Origin: Ignavibacterium sp.
GTDB taxonomy: Bacteria > Bacteroidota > Ignavibacteria > Ignavibacteriales > Ignavibacteriaceae
Assembly (NCBI GenBank): GCA_032027145.1
Contig: JAVSMP010000001.1
Span: forward strand, 648,903 to 712,902
Direction of reading: 5' to 3'
DNA: 64,000 nucleotides
This document shows positions 16,706-26,406 of this stretch, piece by piece. Positions within the stretch are counted from its first letter, which is position 1; each line of letters starts with the position of its first letter. The translations under genes and the position numbers were made by a program. The notes beneath the pieces are model-generated. The model did not search any database and was not told the origin of the DNA. It worked only from the letters and a program-made list of their open reading frames with translations.

Positions 16706-16900
16706 GTTTTAACAAAAGAAGAAGTCAGAAAGAATACATATATTTCACATCAGCATCGTGGTAGTATAGAATATCAAATTGGAACTATAAATAAAAACAT
16801 CACGGAATTTAATGAGTATTTAATGAACCAAAACGAAATTGCTGATTATATTTTGAATCAAACCAAAAATGAAGTCTGGGAAAAAATATTTAACCATTAG
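16706..16900 (+). other. open stretch overlapping the methylase start
   Basis: A 64-codon open stretch with no clear start. It reads VLTKEEVRKNTYISHQHRGS and continues with good protein-like composition to EVWEKIFNH. Its last 32 bases overlap, in another frame, the start of the DNA methylase at 16869. It may be a gene remnant or a small protein starting at an internal ATG (16823, MNQNEIADYILNQ). Confidence 0.3.
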
Positions 16901-18806
16901 TAACGCTGCTTCGCAAATCGGAGTATCAAATGCCACCATAAAAAACTGGATACGTCATAATTATTTAAAACCCTTTTATGAAGAAGGCTCAGCTTTATTT
17001 GCAGAGGAGGATGTTCTAAATTTACAAGAGAAAATAAAATCAGGCGAGATATACAGACTAAATACTCGTGCAAACAAGAGAAGCTCTGCTAAAAAATTTA
17101 TTCCAAAAGAATACAGTGAAATTGATAAATCAAATGAGTGGCTAACAACAATCACCAACTATGTTTCAGTTCATTCTTTAGAATTAGAGCCTGCTGTTTT
17201 TTATTTAGCTCTAAATGTATTGATTTCTGAAAAATTCATCCTCACAAATAATTTTTCGGAAATTTTGAGTTTTAACAAAGAGTATTTTAAGAATTCATAT
17301 CTGAAAAAAATTTTAAGAAGCTATTATTCAACTCTCCCTAATGTTTCAAAGAGTGAATTTTATACAAAACTTTTAGAATTCTATATCCCAACACAATCAG
17401 ATGTGTTGGGTCTTCTTTATCAATCAATTAAAAGCGAGGGCGATAAGGCAAAGCAAGGTTCCTATTATACACCCAAAAACATTGTTGATGATATTGTTAA
17501 AGAATATATTAAAAATGAATCAACAATTTTAGATCCGTGTTGTGGGACTGGTCAATTTTTATTGAATTTAAATGGTCTTATAAAAAATCCAGTACAGATT
17601 TACGGACTCGATATAGATAGAGTGGCTGTATTTATTTGTAAATTAAATTTAATTATGGCATACCCAGCACAAGAATTTGAACCTAACGTTTTTCACTTGG
17701 ATACTCTTTTAGAATTAAAAACCAATTCTCTTTTTAGTCAAAGTGATCTTCCGGATGGATTTGATTTAATAATAACAAATCCGCCTTGGGGTTTACATTT
17801 TCCGAGCGACAGCTTAAGCATGTTAAAATCTCTTTATCCTAAAATTATTTCATTAGAATCATTTTCATATTTTTTATTTAAAAGCATTGGATTGCTAAAA
17901 CCGAATGGGATTTTATCTTTTATTCTTCCCGAAGCTGTACTGAATATTAAAGTTCATAATGATATCCGTAAAGAAATTTTAAATAGCACAACTGTTTTGA
18001 AAATTGTAAAGTTGGGGCGTGTGTTCACAAATGTTTTTACCAATGTAATCAGACTTGATTTAAAAAAACAAAGCACAACAAATCATCCTGTTCAAATTAT
18101 TAATAAGATATCATTTACCATAGATCAGCAGCGCTTTCGAACAAATCCCGATTATATTTTTGATATTGAAACAAATAATGAGGATAGTCAAATAATCGAA
18201 AAGGTTTATAGGAAGCCTCATCATACATTAAAGAATAATGCTGAATGGGCTCTTGGGATTGTTACCGGAGATAACAAAAAATTTCTTAAAGATTCCATAA
18301 ATAATGGTTATGAAGAAATATATAGGGGTAAAGAAGTAAACAAATACATTCTTTCCAAGGCTTCTGATTTTATTTTATTTGAGCCGGGAAAATTTCAGCA
18401 AACTGCCCCGATTGAAAAATATCGGGCAAAAGAAAAATTGATTTACAGATTTATATCTGACAAACTTGTATTTGCCTATGACGATAAGCAAAAGCTTACT
18501 CTTAATAGCGCAAATATTCTTATTCCCACAATTACTAACTATCCGGTTAAAGTTGTTTTGGCGCTTTTTAATTCTTCTTTATATCAGTTTATTTATTCTA
18601 AAAAATTCAACACAATAAAAGTTTTGAGAGGAAATCTTGAAGAGCTGCCTTTGCCCATATTCAGTGAAAAGATTTACAACAAAATTGTTAAGCTTGTTGA
18701 TGAAATAATTTTGTCGGGAAAAACTAACGCTGAACTTGATTTACTAATATTTAAGTTATTAGATATTTCTGAATCTGAACAAAAATATATTTTAGCTTCC
18801 AAATAA
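16869..18806 (+). CDS. N6-adenine DNA methylase with N-terminal HTH
   Basis: A 645-residue protein. The N-terminus (about 5-60) is a MerR-like helix-turn-helix (TISNAASQIGVSNATIKNWI). The middle is a gamma-type amino methyltransferase with motif X-like GSYYTPKNIVDDIV, motif I DPCCGTGQFLL (about 220-230) and catalytic NPPWG (about 304). The C-terminal third (about 420-640) looks like a TaqI/type I-type target recognition region (LALFNSSLYQFIYSKKF, LRGNLEELPLP). It would methylate adenine in a specific site. No nuclease domain is seen in it, and no hsdR/hsdS lies beside it. It may be solitary or the remaining part of a restriction system. The G-poor, very AT-rich codon use suggests transfer. 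Confidence 0.85.
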   Translation: MKSGKKYLTISNAASQIGVSNATIKNWIRHNYLKPFYEEGSALFAEEDVLNLQEKIKSGEIYRLNTRANKRSSAKKFIPKEYSEIDKSNEWLTTITNYVSVHSLELEPAVFYLALNVLISEKFILTNNFSEILSFNKEYFKNSYLKKILRSYYSTLPNVSKSEFYTKLLEFYIPTQSDVLGLLYQSIKSEGDKAKQGSYYTPKNIVDDIVKEYIKNESTILDPCCGTGQFLLNLNGLIKNPVQIYGLDIDRVAVFICKLNLIMAYPAQEFEPNVFHLDTLLELKTNSLFSQSDLPDGFDLIITNPPWGLHFPSDSLSMLKSLYPKIISLESFSYFLFKSIGLLKPNGILSFILPEAVLNIKVHNDIRKEILNSTTVLKIVKLGRVFTNVFTNVIRLDLKKQSTTNHPVQIINKISFTIDQQRFRTNPDYIFDIETNNEDSQIIEKVYRKPHHTLKNNAEWALGIVTGDNKKFLKDSINNGYEEIYRGKEVNKYILSKASDFILFEPGKFQQTAPIEKYRAKEKLIYRFISDKLVFAYDDKQKLTLNSANILIPTITNYPVKVVLALFNSSLYQFIYSKKFNTIKVLRGNLEELPLPIFSEKIYNKIVKLVDEIILSGKTNAELDLLIFKLLDISESEQKYILASK

Positions 18807-21533: not shown

Positions 21534-22931
21534 TTATTTTCTATACTGCTTAATAAAATCTTCAACTTCAGGCAATCCACCCTGATATATTAAATAACCA
21601 TTGCTCGGTTCACGTTCGGTTATTTCTCCGGCAATAGGTGTTAACATTATTTCTTTTACTTTTTGCAGATCGTCTGTTTGCCCTAATGCCCAGCCGAGTT
21701 TTACAAATGCAACCTCGGGCAGCATATTTGCTGCAGGAATAACACCCAGTTCCATCATATCCCTTCCGGTATCATAAACATACATCTGCACGTAACCCCA
21801 AAGTGTTTGCACAGTCATATAAACAGCAACACCATTTTCTTTAGCTCGTTTCAATGCCGGATAAAGCGGCTTGTTAACATGTCCAAGTCCTGTGCCTGCT
21901 ATTACAATCCCCTTATAACCATTATCAATAAGTGAATCGATCATATCGGGTTTCATATTCGGATAATAGTAAACTATTGCAACCCTGTCATCAAACACTG
22001 CATTTACTTTAACACTGTTATCGTTTCTTCTCCTTTTATAATCCTCCCTTAGAGGTGTTATCTTTTCACGGCTAACAGTTGCAATCGGAATATCACCAAT
22101 CGTTCTAAAAGTTGAGCGATAACTTGAATGCATTTTTCTTACCCTTGTTCCGCGGTGAAGCAATCCATAAAGATCACTTGTGGGACCAAACATACAAACC
22201 ATAACTTCTGCAATATCACTTTTTGCAGCTGTTGTTACAGAATGAATCAGATTCAACGCTGCATCAGATGACGGGCGGTCGCTGGATCTTTGCGAACCGA
22301 CCATAACAATTGGAATCGGAGAATCCTGCACCATAAAAGATAAAACCGCAGCAGTATGATGCATTGTGTCAGTTCCGTGCCCGATCACAATTCCCTGAAC
22401 ACCTTTTTCAATTTCTCTTCCGATTGCTTCTGCCAGACCAATCCATTGCTCGGGTCCCATATTTTCACTAAAAACACCATAAAGTTTTTCTGTATCCAGA
22501 TTACATATATCTGCAAGTTCAGGAACTGAACCGTAAAGTTCGCCAGGAGAAAACGCAGGAATAACTGCACCGGTTCTGTAATCCAATCGTGATGCTATTG
22601 TTCCGCCTGTGCCAAGCAGTTTTACATTTGGTTTTTTAGGATCAAAAGGAAAATCCTTTTCAGGAATTTTATACTTAGCTTCTCTTCTTCCGAATATATT
22701 TATCTCTTTAATTTTTTCTGCTGCAATACCGATGTTATAACCAATCGGCATTTTTAAAACGATATGAAATTCATCAGCAGTTTCAGAGCGTGGCAGAACA
22801 AGTCCTTTATAATTTCCATCCTCAGTTATTATTTCGACATCACTCCAAACAGGAGAATTAAATTTATGCAAAGTGTTAAGTGCAGCTCCGCGGTATCCTT
22901 TAAAATCCTCTAAGTTTATTTCATCCATCAT
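21534..22931 (-). CDS. gatD: glutamyl-tRNA(Gln) amidotransferase subunit D
   Basis: A 465-residue GatD. A short N-terminal SH3-like part (about 1-80) precedes an L-asparaginase-type domain. The catalytic Thr is in LGTGGTIASRLDY (about 104-116), the second Thr-Asp in HGTDTMHHTA (about 186-195), and the QRSSDRPSSDAALNL segment follows. GatD frees ammonia from glutamine or asparagine and passes it to GatE to amidate Glu-tRNA(Gln). Plain bacterial asparaginases are about 330 residues and lack the N-terminal extension. The 4-base overlap with gatE upstream confirms the pair. GatDE is regarded as archaeal, so its presence in a bacterial chromosome is unusual. Confidence 0.9.
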   Translation of the reverse strand: MMDEINLEDFKGYRGAALNTLHKFNSPVWSDVEIITEDGNYKGLVLPRSETADEFHIVLKMPIGYNIGIAAEKIKEINIFGRREAKYKIPEKDFPFDPKKPNVKLLGTGGTIASRLDYRTGAVIPAFSPGELYGSVPELADICNLDTEKLYGVFSENMGPEQWIGLAEAIGREIEKGVQGIVIGHGTDTMHHTAAVLSFMVQDSPIPIVMVGSQRSSDRPSSDAALNLIHSVTTAAKSDIAEVMVCMFGPTSDLYGLLHRGTRVRKMHSSYRSTFRTIGDIPIATVSREKITPLREDYKRRRNDNSVKVNAVFDDRVAIVYYYPNMKPDMIDSLIDNGYKGIVIAGTGLGHVNKPLYPALKRAKENGVAVYMTVQTLWGYVQMYVYDTGRDMMELGVIPAANMLPEVAFVKLGWALGQTDDLQKVKEIMLTPIAGEITEREPSNGYLIYQGGLPEVEDFIKQYRK

Positions 22932-24847
22932 TTAACTCCTTTCGCAAAACCGATTCGCTGAGCAATATCTTTTGCAGAAACTTTACCTCGAAGTTTTTTC
23001 ATTATCATTCCCATCAATAATTTATTTTTCTTTTCCGGATTGATAATTTTCATTTTACTATAATCAGCTTGCGCTTTAACAATTGCATCATCAATCTCTT
23101 TGTCGCTAGCAGGATTAAGAACCACCTCAGCGGTAAATGTTCCAAGCTCGGCTACAGTTTTAAATGTTGTAAATAAACTATCTTCAGGAATTTTATTATC
23201 AGCCAGATTTTTGAGAACACTCTCAAACATATCTTCGTTAAGCCATTCAATTAAATATTCTGTCTTTTTTAATCTTTTAGGATATTGAATAAGAAGTACT
23301 GCTGCGGTTGTTGGATTCACCTTCCATTCATTTACTGCTTTTTTAAAAAGCTCTGCATACCGGGAAATTGATAGTTCTTCAATTGTCTCCTTTGGGATTC
23401 CGAGTTTATTATACCATTCAATTCTTTTCCAGAACTGTTCAGGTAACCATGCTTTAATTCTTTCCAGTCTTTCCTTAGTAATTTTCTTTGGGGGAAGATC
23501 TGTATCGGGATACATTCTATCGGCACCCGGAAGAATTCTCTCAAAGCCGTTTGTTCCATCACTTAAAGCCTGTCTTGTTTCAGATGGAATTCCGATTGTG
23601 GCTTCTTTAGCACGAATGATAATCTCATTAACTGCTGTTTTTGCATCTTCGTTACTGCCCCATACTATTACCATTGTATCATCATCATTAGCATTTGCAA
23701 ACTTTTTTATCTTCTGCCAATCTGAAGAAGTGATTGTATCGCTTTTGCTATCGGAGTGAATTATATTAGGAATATTTGTTAAGCAAGCAATAACCCTGAC
23801 ACGATCAGAAATTTCCTTAGAGAAATAAGTATCAGTTTGTGTCTGCCAATGCAGAAGATCCTTAAATCCCTTTAACACAACTGCACAAATTTTCATTCCA
23901 GTATCAACTGCATTTTTAAGTGGAGCGTAATTGACTTTTTTTAAGAGATTAGTAACATCAAAATCTTCAGCTTTAAATGTTTCATCAGTGATTCCTCTTT
24001 TTTTCAATTCCTCTCTTAACCTTAAAAGATTCCACTGTCTCATTGCTTCGTTGTATGTAAGAATTGGAATCATACTTATCTGCGAAACTCCTTTAATCTC
24101 AACACGAGTTCCACCCTCAACACTAACATTAACATCTTCACGTGCAGCACCCATTCCTCTGCGTACTTTGTGAGTGCTTCTTACCAGCTTACTGCATTGC
24201 CAGGCAACCTCAGCAGCTTCCTGCGGTGTTTTCATTGCTGGCTCTGTAACAGTTTCAATCAAAGGCATTCCCAATCTGTCAGTCAGGTAAACTCTTTCGT
24301 GTCCAATATCAGAAACTTCTCTGCAGGAATCTTCTTCTATCGACATCTGAACAATTCTGATTTTTCTATCTTTATACGGAATCCATCCGTCAAGTGCATA
24401 AATTGCTGTCCGCTGAAATCCTGTTGGTATGCTTCCATCCAGGTATTGTTTTCTTGCAATGTGAAGTTCATCTACAGTGTTACAGTTATAAAGAAGCCCA
24501 ATACCGATCGCAATATCCAATGCTTCTTCATTTATTAAGAATGGCGGAGTATCATCCATCTCGTAGGTACAAACTGTTTCCCGTTTAATATGATAGATAA
24601 TGTTTTTTTTTGTTTTAAATTCCATCAGTGCTGTGCCGTCATAAACTCCCATTTCAGAAAGCGTCGGACGCATGTGTCTTAATATTTCGGCATCATACTC
24701 TTTGCTGTACTTGCCAGCCGGGCAGCGGCAGAAAAGTTTTTTTTCCGTAAGAAGCTGCTGATGTATTTCAAGTCCGGATTTAAAGCCTATTGTTTTATAA
24801 TCGGCTTCGGTCATTTCATTGAAAGGTTTGAAAATATAATCATACAT
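22928..24847 (-). CDS. gatE: glutamyl-tRNA(Gln) amidotransferase subunit E
   Basis: A 639-residue GatE, the tRNA-binding and kinase subunit of the GatDE complex. The N-terminal half is GatB-like: GLEIHQQLLTEKKLFCRCP, PPFLINEEALDIAIGIGLLYNCN, RTAIYALDGWIPY, VEIKGVSQISMIP. An AspRS-like GAD insertion follows (about 290-420, including PGADRMYPDTDLPP further on). The tail is the YqeY-like helical domain (NPEKKNKLLMGMIMKKLRGKVSAKDIAQRI). Bacterial GatB is about 480 residues and has no GAD insertion, so length and architecture both point to GatE. Its stop overlaps the gatD start by 4 bases, giving a two-gene operon. Upstream is an IS element. Confidence 0.9.
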   Translation of the reverse strand: MYDYIFKPFNEMTEADYKTIGFKSGLEIHQQLLTEKKLFCRCPAGKYSKEYDAEILRHMRPTLSEMGVYDGTALMEFKTKKNIIYHIKRETVCTYEMDDTPPFLINEEALDIAIGIGLLYNCNTVDELHIARKQYLDGSIPTGFQRTAIYALDGWIPYKDRKIRIVQMSIEEDSCREVSDIGHERVYLTDRLGMPLIETVTEPAMKTPQEAAEVAWQCSKLVRSTHKVRRGMGAAREDVNVSVEGGTRVEIKGVSQISMIPILTYNEAMRQWNLLRLREELKKRGITDETFKAEDFDVTNLLKKVNYAPLKNAVDTGMKICAVVLKGFKDLLHWQTQTDTYFSKEISDRVRVIACLTNIPNIIHSDSKSDTITSSDWQKIKKFANANDDDTMVIVWGSNEDAKTAVNEIIIRAKEATIGIPSETRQALSDGTNGFERILPGADRMYPDTDLPPKKITKERLERIKAWLPEQFWKRIEWYNKLGIPKETIEELSISRYAELFKKAVNEWKVNPTTAAVLLIQYPKRLKKTEYLIEWLNEDMFESVLKNLADNKIPEDSLFTTFKTVAELGTFTAEVVLNPASDKEIDDAIVKAQADYSKMKIINPEKKNKLLMGMIMKKLRGKVSAKDIAQRIGFAKGVK

Positions 24848-25050
24848 AAGTAGGCTACAAAAATTTATAGTTGTTAATATGAAAAATAAGAAAAGTTTAT
24901 AGAAGTGAGAAAGTGACTTTTAAGGTTTAAATACAATTTAAATTTCTCTATATGTTCAACAATTTAACATTGATAATCCTATTAAAAGAAAGAATCGCAA
25001 CTAATTATAGAAATAAAATGAGTGGGTTGTTTTATGAAAGAAAAGCATAT

Positions 25051-26406
25051 CTGTCCAAAACGACAAAAAAGAAATCCCTCAAATAAAGGTGGTAAATTTG
25101 TTTTGACAATAAAAAACACCAAACTTTATCGAGGGATTGTAATGGTAAATGTAACACTTTTTAGTCAGATTTTACAAAAAATAAACAGAAACATTTTTGC
25201 AAGGGTAATAAAAGAATACTCAACAGATAAACATAATAAGGGAATAAATAGCTGGACGCATTTAGTAACGATGTTATTCGGTCAGTTTGCAAAATGTCAG
25301 TCAATAAGAGAAATAACAAATGGATTATTATCAATATCAGGTAATCTGAATCATTTGGGAATTCAAAGGAAATCACCTTCTAAATCATCTTTATCTTACA
25401 TAAATGCTACAAGAGACTGGCAGATGTTCAGGGAGTTATTCTTTTCACTGTATGAAGATTTTCAGAAGAGAGGTTATTTCCAAAGGAAAAAATTTAAGGG
25501 AATTAAGAAAAAAATATTTATGCTGGATAGTACAATAATCAGCGTATGTATAAAAGTATTCGATTGGGCAAAATATAAAAAAGAAAAAGGAGCCATAAAG
25601 CTTCATACGCTTCTAGATTATGATGGCTGTATGCCCAAATATGTGTATATGACCGATGGAAAGAAAGCAGATGTGAAACACGCAAATTATATGCTTTTAC
25701 CAGAGAGCTCAGTAATAGTTGCTGACAGAGCATACATAGACTTTAAGATGCTCTATCGGTGGATGAAAGAGAAAATAATATTTGTAATAAAACTAAAAGA
25801 TGCAATCAAATATGAACAAGTAAAAGAATTTCCTTTGCCGGAAGGAAAAGATGAGCATATACTTAAGGATGAAAAAATCAGGTTAACCGGTGTGGATACC
25901 AAAGACCATTATCCTGAGTGCTTAAGACGAGTGGTAGTATATTCCGAAACAGAAAAAGCAGATGTGGAGATAATAACAAACAATTTTTCTTGGACAGCAC
26001 AAACAATATCAGAGCTATATAAACAGCGATGGTCGATAGAAACATTCTTCAAAGAGCTTAAACAACACTTAAAAATCAAATCTTTTTTAGGAACAACTGA
26101 GAATGCGATGTGGATACAGATTTGGACAGCATTGATAACTTTGCTGCTGTTGAAATATCTAAAAGAGATATCCAAATATGGATGGAGTTTATCAAATTTA
26201 ATTGCTTTTCTAAGAATGAATTTGTTTGTAAAGATTTTATTAACTGAATGGCTTGATAATCCTTTTAAGCCGCCAGAGGATCTTTCTATGAAACTAAGAC
26301 AAGAAAATTTATTCTAAGAGGGGGATATTTGGGAAGTTATTTTATAATCTGTCCAAAAAAACTTATTAAGAAACCTTTTTCTCTTTTTCTAATTTATTTT
26401 GGACAG
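25051..26406 (+). mobile_element. IS4-family insertion sequence
   Basis: The element spans from CTGTCCAAAA at 25051 to the inverted TTTTGGACAG ending at 26406, giving 10-base terminal repeats. It encloses one transposase gene. A third CTGTCCAAAA copy, in the left orientation, lies at 26349 and makes the right end a hairpin. Flanks show no clear target duplication (ATAT on the left, CACTG on the right), so the exact ends, or a past rearrangement, are uncertain. Confidence 0.75.
25142..26317 (+). CDS. IS4-family transposase (DUF4372 type)
   Basis: A 391-residue transposase from the ATG at 25142, preceded by GAGGGA; the longer reading from 25022 runs through the IS left end and is rejected. An N-terminal DUF4372-type domain (about 1-75) is followed by the DDE core: first Asp in MLDSTIIS (about 128), second in VADRAYID (about 198) and Glu in YKQRWSIETFFKELKQHLK, which has the Y-x2-R-x3-E-x6-K signature of IS4. 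It cuts and pastes the element. The ORF is full length, so the copy could be active. Confidence 0.9.
   Translation: MVNVTLFSQILQKINRNIFARVIKEYSTDKHNKGINSWTHLVTMLFGQFAKCQSIREITNGLLSISGNLNHLGIQRKSPSKSSLSYINATRDWQMFRELFFSLYEDFQKRGYFQRKKFKGIKKKIFMLDSTIISVCIKVFDWAKYKKEKGAIKLHTLLDYDGCMPKYVYMTDGKKADVKHANYMLLPESSVIVADRAYIDFKMLYRWMKEKIIFVIKLKDAIKYEQVKEFPLPEGKDEHILKDEKIRLTGVDTKDHYPECLRRVVVYSETEKADVEIITNNFSWTAQTISELYKQRWSIETFFKELKQHLKIKSFLGTTENAMWIQIWTALITLLLLKYLKEISKYGWSLSNLIAFLRMNLFVKILLTEWLDNPFKPPEDLSMKLRQENLF

Follow-up and report, generated by a model that had tools for sequence, protein, structure and literature searches.

A GatDE-type amidotransferase of Ignavibacterium belongs to a broad bacterial clade and occurs beside glutaminyl-tRNA synthetase

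What is an amidotransferase regarded as archaeal doing in a bacterial chromosome, and what would be left for it to do in a cell with other means of making Gln-tRNA(Gln)? The question is raised by a window of 64,000 nucleotides from Ignavibacterium sp. (contig JAVSMP010000001.1, positions 648,903 to 712,902), in which two overlapping genes, gatE and gatD, encode the subunits of the amidotransferase GatDE. A passage of PMC9499178 describes GatDE as restricted to archaea today, its absence from bacteria being used in arguments on the amidotransferases of the last universal common ancestor (LUCA), and a passage of PMC8007984 restricts it to archaea without asparaginyl-tRNA synthetase (AsnRS). The first-pass annotation of the window had cited GatDE as archaeal, in agreement with both passages. 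The two open reading frames (ORFs) are intact and lie on the minus strand, gatE first and then gatD:

22928-24847, minus strand: gatE, ORF of 639 aa, over the cut-offs of the NCBIfam GatE equivalogs and matching PDB 1zq1/2d6f by sequence and predicted fold
21534-22931, minus strand: gatD, ORF of 465 aa with a GatD N-terminal domain and an asparaginase-type domain, over the cut-offs of the NCBIfam GatD equivalogs and Pfam GatD_N
22928..22931, minus strand: overlap of the gatE stop and the gatD start, 4 bases

The overlapping GatD (465 residues) and GatE (639 residues) annotated at 21534-24847 were recovered with exact ORF coordinates, and the window pair is an intact GatDE, with both subunits above NCBIfam equivalog cut-offs. 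GatE scores 565.5 bits (cut-off 456) and 497.1 bits (cut-off 319.55) against the GatE equivalogs, and GatD 523 bits (cut-off 310) and 519.5 bits (cut-off 324) against those of GatD, while six GatB models match the window GatE at 64 to 157 bits, all below their cut-offs of 314.8 to 680. The closest solved structures found by sequence search are those of archaeal GatDE (PDB 1zq1 and 2d6f), with E-values against 1zq1 of 5.3e-103 for GatE and 4.5e-124 for GatD. The 4-base overlap between the two genes suggests translational coupling.

In GatD, Pfam GatD_N (49.2 bits, cut-off 25.7), Asparaginase and Asparaginase_C all pass their cut-offs, and the protein keeps T111, T187, D188 and K266, the asparaginase-type Thr, Thr, Asp and Lys, which we take to be catalytic. 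The domains of GatE, with limits set by eye, are arranged as follows:

GatE residues ~15-290 and ~411-455: catalytic cradle
GatE residues ~298-410: insertion resembling GAD and aspartyl-tRNA synthetase (AspRS)
GatE residues ~456-635: helical and YqeY-like tail domains

The first-pass annotation had assigned GatE a GAD insertion and a YqeY-like tail. The tail is supported by Pfam GatB_Yqey at the C-terminus (32.4 bits, cut-off 27); the insertion is a weak match to Pfam GAD, at 21.9 bits just below the cut-off of 23.4, and the sequence alignment to 1zq1 (query 15-631) passes through this region, where identity to archaeal GatE is 22-26%. A predicted GatE model of moderate confidence (mean predicted local distance difference test score, pLDDT, of 74.6; residues 41-102 and four shorter stretches below 50) returned 1zq1_C as its top fold match (TM-score 0.61 by query length, root-mean-square deviation 8.6), in an output that is silent on whether the GAD insertion itself aligned. 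Across 39 bacterial GatEs and both archaeal sequences compared, 81 positions are identical, including G25-L26-E27, H29, D137-G138-S139 and G143-F144-Q145-R146-T147.

The pair is widespread in bacteria. A scan of a collection of 84,980 species yielded at least 552 stretches encoding a relative (stretches and not genes, as one gene may match both search patterns), and the best 80 loci were kept, hereafter the named loci. By record title, the bacterial GatE clade spans at least ten phyla among these best 80 of 552: Ignavibacteria, Kapabacteria, Aminicenantes, Acidobacteria, Phycisphaerae and other Planctomycetota, Latescibacterota, Calditrichota/KSB1, Cloacimonetes, Neomarinimicrobiota, Krumholzibacteriota, Gemmatimonadetes, Zixibacteria and Aegiribacteria. 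Each of the 80 titles belongs to a metagenome-assembled genome (MAG), so the labels may be loose, and four are chromosome records. Within the phylum of the window, GatE exceeds the family cut-off in 29 of 395 genomes, all of them among the 98 (a hand count from the table) that belong to the window's class or nearer; the class GatE ORFs are open in these 29 of 98 genomes, two loci (L012 and L020) being flagged with one stop each inside the match. GatDs from 64 named loci are 69-88% identical to that of the window, and among the bacterial GatDs compared the Thr, Thr and Asp are kept in 65/65 and the Lys in 62/65, the other three being gaps. The first-pass annotation had allowed that the pair might be common in bacteria and already described. 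Common it proved to be, whereas a search of the literature available as full text, which leaves most subscription papers outside and in which matches to "gate" are noisy, brought up no paper describing a bacterial GatDE among the matches listed. Bacterial GatD and GatE are probably visible in databases, NCBI models labelling them so.

To place the window gene, we inferred a tree rooted on two GatBs, with 39 bacterial and two archaeal GatEs. Support for the split of the bacterial GatEs from the archaeal ones is 97/93, under a warning from the tool about long branches, those of the archaeal GatEs and of GatB, coming together, and the window GatE, which is 80% identical to the GatE of an Ignavibacterium MAG, groups with Ignavibacteriota. 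A GatE/GatB tree had been proposed by the first-pass annotation; its description of an archaeal-type system in a bacterial chromosome, with the implied lone transfer, gives way to a gene that sits in a broad bacterial clade. Because of this membership, any transfer from archaea would have been early or indirect. The archaeal GatE sample, two nearly full sequences and one frame-broken Natrinema plasmid sequence, is too thin to speak to the origin of the bacterial group. With the Natrinema fragment included, which forms a very long branch and in which some letters past the frame break were kept, the base of the bacterial group was not resolved, and our conclusions rest on the tree without it.

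Three observations on individual GatE genes accompany the tree. The Natrinema sequence (CP031304.1, L196 3001-4883) is an unannotated copy of GatE with a broken frame, carried by a haloarchaeal megaplasmid. Within the window's own family, one GatE (L031 1498-3456, genome G152) is divergent, with 43% identity to that of the window, and is perhaps a second GatE type. Finally, the GatE of an "Acidobacteria" MAG is nearly identical to an Aminicenantes GatE (L107 and L104; end branches 0.017 and 0.0043), and the "Acidobacteria" label probably reflects loose taxonomy.

The window genome, a single contig of 3,665,746 bases, was searched for gatA, gatB and glnS, in line with the proposal of the first-pass annotation. 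GatB and GatA are encoded elsewhere in it as separate genes, and a glutaminyl-tRNA synthetase (GlnRS) is present over the cut-off, covering model positions 1-524 of 524 (G000:C1:2477307-2478881). The genome has this one GlnRS, one glutamyl-tRNA synthetase (GluRS) and an AsnRS, and two further class II synthetases that are, by length, AspRS and lysyl-tRNA synthetase. Since GlnRS and AsnRS are present, direct synthesis of both Gln-tRNA and Asn-tRNA is possible in this host, which besides these direct routes is predicted to hold two amidotransferases, GatDE and that of the GatA and GatB genes. With GlnRS, GatA and GatB in the same genome, the annotation was right to ask what GatDE does beside other routes.

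To assess how these routes combine, we examined 80 genomes of the class (the other 18 of its 98, each negative for GatE, were left out) and the genomes behind the named loci; a gene absent from a MAG may reflect a gap in the assembly. GlnRS exceeds its cut-off in 58/80 class genomes (26/29 with GatE and 32/51 without) and in 27/36 GatE genomes behind named loci. GatB is missing in 7/29 class genomes with GatE and 4/51 without, all 11 of which carry GlnRS, and all 22 class genomes without over-cut-off GlnRS retain GatB; behind the named loci, GatB is missing in 35/57 genomes. GatA follows GatB, exceeding the cut-off in 20/20 tested genomes with GatB, in 0/11 class genomes without it and in 2/35 named GatB-less genomes (G413 and G450), and among GatE-bearing, GatB-less genomes it is below the cut-off or absent in 7/7 from the class and 33/35 behind named loci. 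AsnRS passes in 67/72 genomes. Individual genomes illustrate the range: G290, G395 and G398 combine GatE, GlnRS and AsnRS with no GatA or GatB over the cut-off, G396 has GatE, GatA, GatB, GlnRS and AsnRS, and G397 has GatE, GatA, GatB and AsnRS with a GlnRS fragment only. Fisher tests on the class genomes, which ignore kinship and are therefore weak, gave p 0.087 for GatE against GatB loss, p 0.010 for GatE against GlnRS, and p 0.030 for GatB missing in 11/58 genomes with GlnRS against 0/22 without. From these counts, GatDE usually occurs alongside the direct Gln route and independently of GatCAB; it co-occurs with GlnRS and AsnRS and persists without GatA and GatB. As an observation on one of these genomes, the GlnRS-like fragment of G397, a Phycisphaerales chromosome record (L194, G397:C1:3598641-3598940), is C-terminal only, lies in a 173-aa frame and is possibly a decayed glnS.

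Taken together, these data incline us, if only slightly, to the view that this GatE and GatD form a functional member of a bacterial GatDE branch, acting as a Glu-tRNA(Gln) amidotransferase beside GlnRS, as a second route or as clean-up. GatD would free ammonia from glutamine or asparagine, the ammonia would pass to GatE, and GatE would activate the glutamyl side chain on tRNA(Gln) and then amidate it to give Gln-tRNA(Gln), GatCAB being dispensable for its work. This is the standard chemistry taken from family membership, and it is the most likely substrate and activity for the bacterial enzyme. Because GlnRS can make Gln-tRNA(Gln) directly in the host and in most of its relatives, GatDE would most likely serve as a second, indirect route or would clean up Glu-tRNA(Gln) misformed by GluRS.

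Known systems offer partial parallels. Both subunits, the domain order, the active residues and the equivalog scores are as in the archaeal GatDE of Pyrococcus abyssi (1zq1) and Methanothermobacter thermautotrophicus (2d6f, with tRNA(Gln)); what differs is the bacterial host, the U1-A72 pair of its tRNA(Gln), a set of 57 bacteria-specific conserved positions and the presence of GlnRS, the archaeal pathway being that of hosts without this synthetase. Bacterial GatCAB performs the same kind of chemistry, and GatE and GatB have GatB_N and YqeY-type domains in common, but GatD is asparaginase-type whereas GatA is an amidase, and the window GatE falls under every GatB equivalog cut-off. The dual Asn-tRNA(Asn) routes of Deinococcus, Thermus and Bdellovibrio likewise place a direct synthetase and an amidotransferase in one cell; in those bacteria GatCAB and a non-discriminating AspRS form the spare route, and here it would be GatDE beside GlnRS.

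Several points weigh against the predicted role in tRNA(Gln) amidation. The two tRNA(Gln) genes of the window genome, one CUG and one UUG, each have U1-A72, and not the A1-U72 that archaeal GatDE uses according to a passage of PMC9499178. Furthermore, a query with the UUG gene in 24 genomes recovered tRNA(Gln) in 18, equally among those with GatE (9/12) and without it (9/12), so that the recovered tRNA(Gln) does not track GatDE in this set. A comparison of 39 GluRS, drawn from genomes that have neither amidotransferase, GatE or GatB alone, both, or no GlnRS, yielded no sequence signature of an enzyme that charges tRNA(Gln). In five columns the "neither" group has no residue in common with the "no GlnRS" group, but each of these columns is variable, and the Arg that matches R358 of T. 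thermophilus GluRS, a residue presumed to have a role here, is present in 17/18 GluRS from GlnRS-less genomes and does not discriminate the types in this set. A last point is the poor conservation of the tRNA-selecting C-terminal half of bacterial GatE, described below.

The tRNA(Gln) genes themselves show a feature of their own. In the UUG gene (L074 105-178, C1:3556254-3556327, minus strand) the D arm resembles that of tRNA(Glu) (U11-A24 and U13-G22, by eye), position 73 is G and the CCA is encoded; the CUG gene differs in its D arm and has A73. All 18 recovered tRNA(Gln), 17 UUG and one CUG (G398), have the same D arm as the UUG gene and U1-A72 (by eye), among them those of G136 and G009, which have GlnRS but neither GatB nor GatE. 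A tRNA(Gln) with this D arm was considered as the partner of GatDE and rejected, given its equal recovery with and without GatE.

The C-terminal half of GatE bears on a different reading. A comparison of GatE with GatB within the same ten genomes (13 fetched, three dropped out) controls for divergence time. Over 45 pairs, mean identity in GatB is 59.7% in the cradle and 37.2% in the C-terminal half, and in GatE 72.7% and 25.9%. The ratio of C-terminal to cradle identity is lower in GatE in 45/45 pairs (means 0.35 vs 0.62), with ranges that overlap (GatB minimum 0.43, GatE maximum 0.58) and pairs that share ten genomes and are non-independent; the cradle is more conserved in GatE in 40/45 pairs and the C-terminal half less conserved in 40/45. 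For the single archaeal GatE pair, identity is 58% over the first part of the cradle and 36-43% over the C-terminal domains; between the window and archaeal GatEs it is 43-44% over that cradle part and 25-26% over the helical and tail domains. Bacterial GatE nevertheless retains a C-terminal half of full length, with a net positive charge in 31/39 sequences (median +4, window +8), compared with -4 and -14 in the two archaeal GatEs and -11 to +2 in ten GatBs, a charge compatible with RNA binding. According to a passage of PMC4810234, the tail domain of archaeal GatDE contributes to telling tRNA(Gln) and tRNA(Glu) apart, and anchoring of the tRNA falls to the helical domain. The tRNA-choosing part of GatE thus appears free to drift in bacteria; this drift, with length kept and a net positive charge in 31/39, fits relaxed tRNA choice or an altered tRNA-binding mode better than lost RNA binding.

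These results would fit a bacterial GatDE that had changed its job, keeping the amidation chemistry with a relaxed choice of tRNA or with another substrate, be it a misacylated tRNA or no tRNA at all. We regard this as a tentative alternative, and hold equally tentatively its more specific form, a repurposed bacterial subfamily with broad or new substrates, for example one repairing several mischarged tRNAs in hosts with GlnRS and AsnRS. Beyond the drifting tail, it would account for the 57 GatE positions that are fixed in at least 95% of the 39 bacteria and differ or are gapped in the two archaeal GatEs, with 32 of these positions lying within residues 41-210, and it fits hosts whose Gln-tRNA supply is already met by GlnRS. 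On the other side stand the unchanged active residues and domain layout of GatDE and a C-terminal half that keeps the length and mostly the charge of an RNA binder, and the contrast itself draws on two archaeal sequences only and on pairs from ten shared genomes.

That GatDE might instead have taken over from GatCAB as the principal or sole supplier of Gln-tRNA(Gln), with GlnRS minor or dead, is improbable. GatCAB is indeed often missing where GatDE occurs, but the GlnRS matches over the cut-off nearly all span the model, and the 12 GatE genomes tested without such a match (3 from the class, 9 behind named loci) mostly have another explanation. Seven keep GatB (G247, G283, G310, G397 with its GlnRS remnant, G416 with fragments, G422 and G426); G399, G404 and G418, which lack both GatB and any GluRS-like match, probably represent incomplete genomes; and in G407, also without GatB, GlnRS is split at contig ends. 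This leaves G411, a Neomarinimicrobiota MAG of uncertain completeness with GatE, AsnRS and two GluRS-like genes and no over-cut-off GlnRS, GatA or GatB, as a possible case of GatDE as the sole amidotransferase without GlnRS. A single recent import of the pair from an archaeon, perhaps without lasting use, has only the literature view of GatDE as archaeal in its favor and, being already contradicted by the tree, the close Ignavibacterium relative and the open frames across many phyla, is very improbable.

Returning to the locus, the neighborhood of the pair adds no further partner. In a clustering of 671 ORFs from the 80 named loci, GatE was found in 73 loci and GatD in 65, and no operon partner emerged, the next ORF cluster occurring in 10/80 loci and the remainder in at most six. 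gatE and gatD are adjacent on the same strand in 61/61 named loci with both called; 12 of the 80 have a GatE call alone and 4 a GatD call alone. In two class loci, a 288-aa ORF separates gatE and gatD (L009 3372-4238 in G172 and L020 626-1492 in G082). Two other genes of the window were noted:

25022-26317, plus strand: transposase gene (DDE_Tnp_1 with DUF4372) on the strand opposite to gatE, the starts of the two ORFs being about 175 bases apart; it may represent an insertion upstream of the gatE-gatD operon
16869-18806, plus strand: N6 DNA methylase with a TaqI-like specificity domain, 645 aa

According to PMC4206432, no bacteria are known to have both direct and indirect routes to Gln-tRNA(Gln), and PMC3927822 sorts 366 bacterial genomes by GluRS, GlnRS and gatCAB, with no occurrence of the term "GatDE" counted in it. 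The presence of a bacterial GatDE clade in many phyla weakens the archaea-only view of this enzyme and the LUCA arguments built on its absence from bacteria. Its carriers are candidates for dual direct and indirect routes to Gln-tRNA(Gln), and the fidelity and specificity of bacterial GatDE are directly testable with purified proteins.

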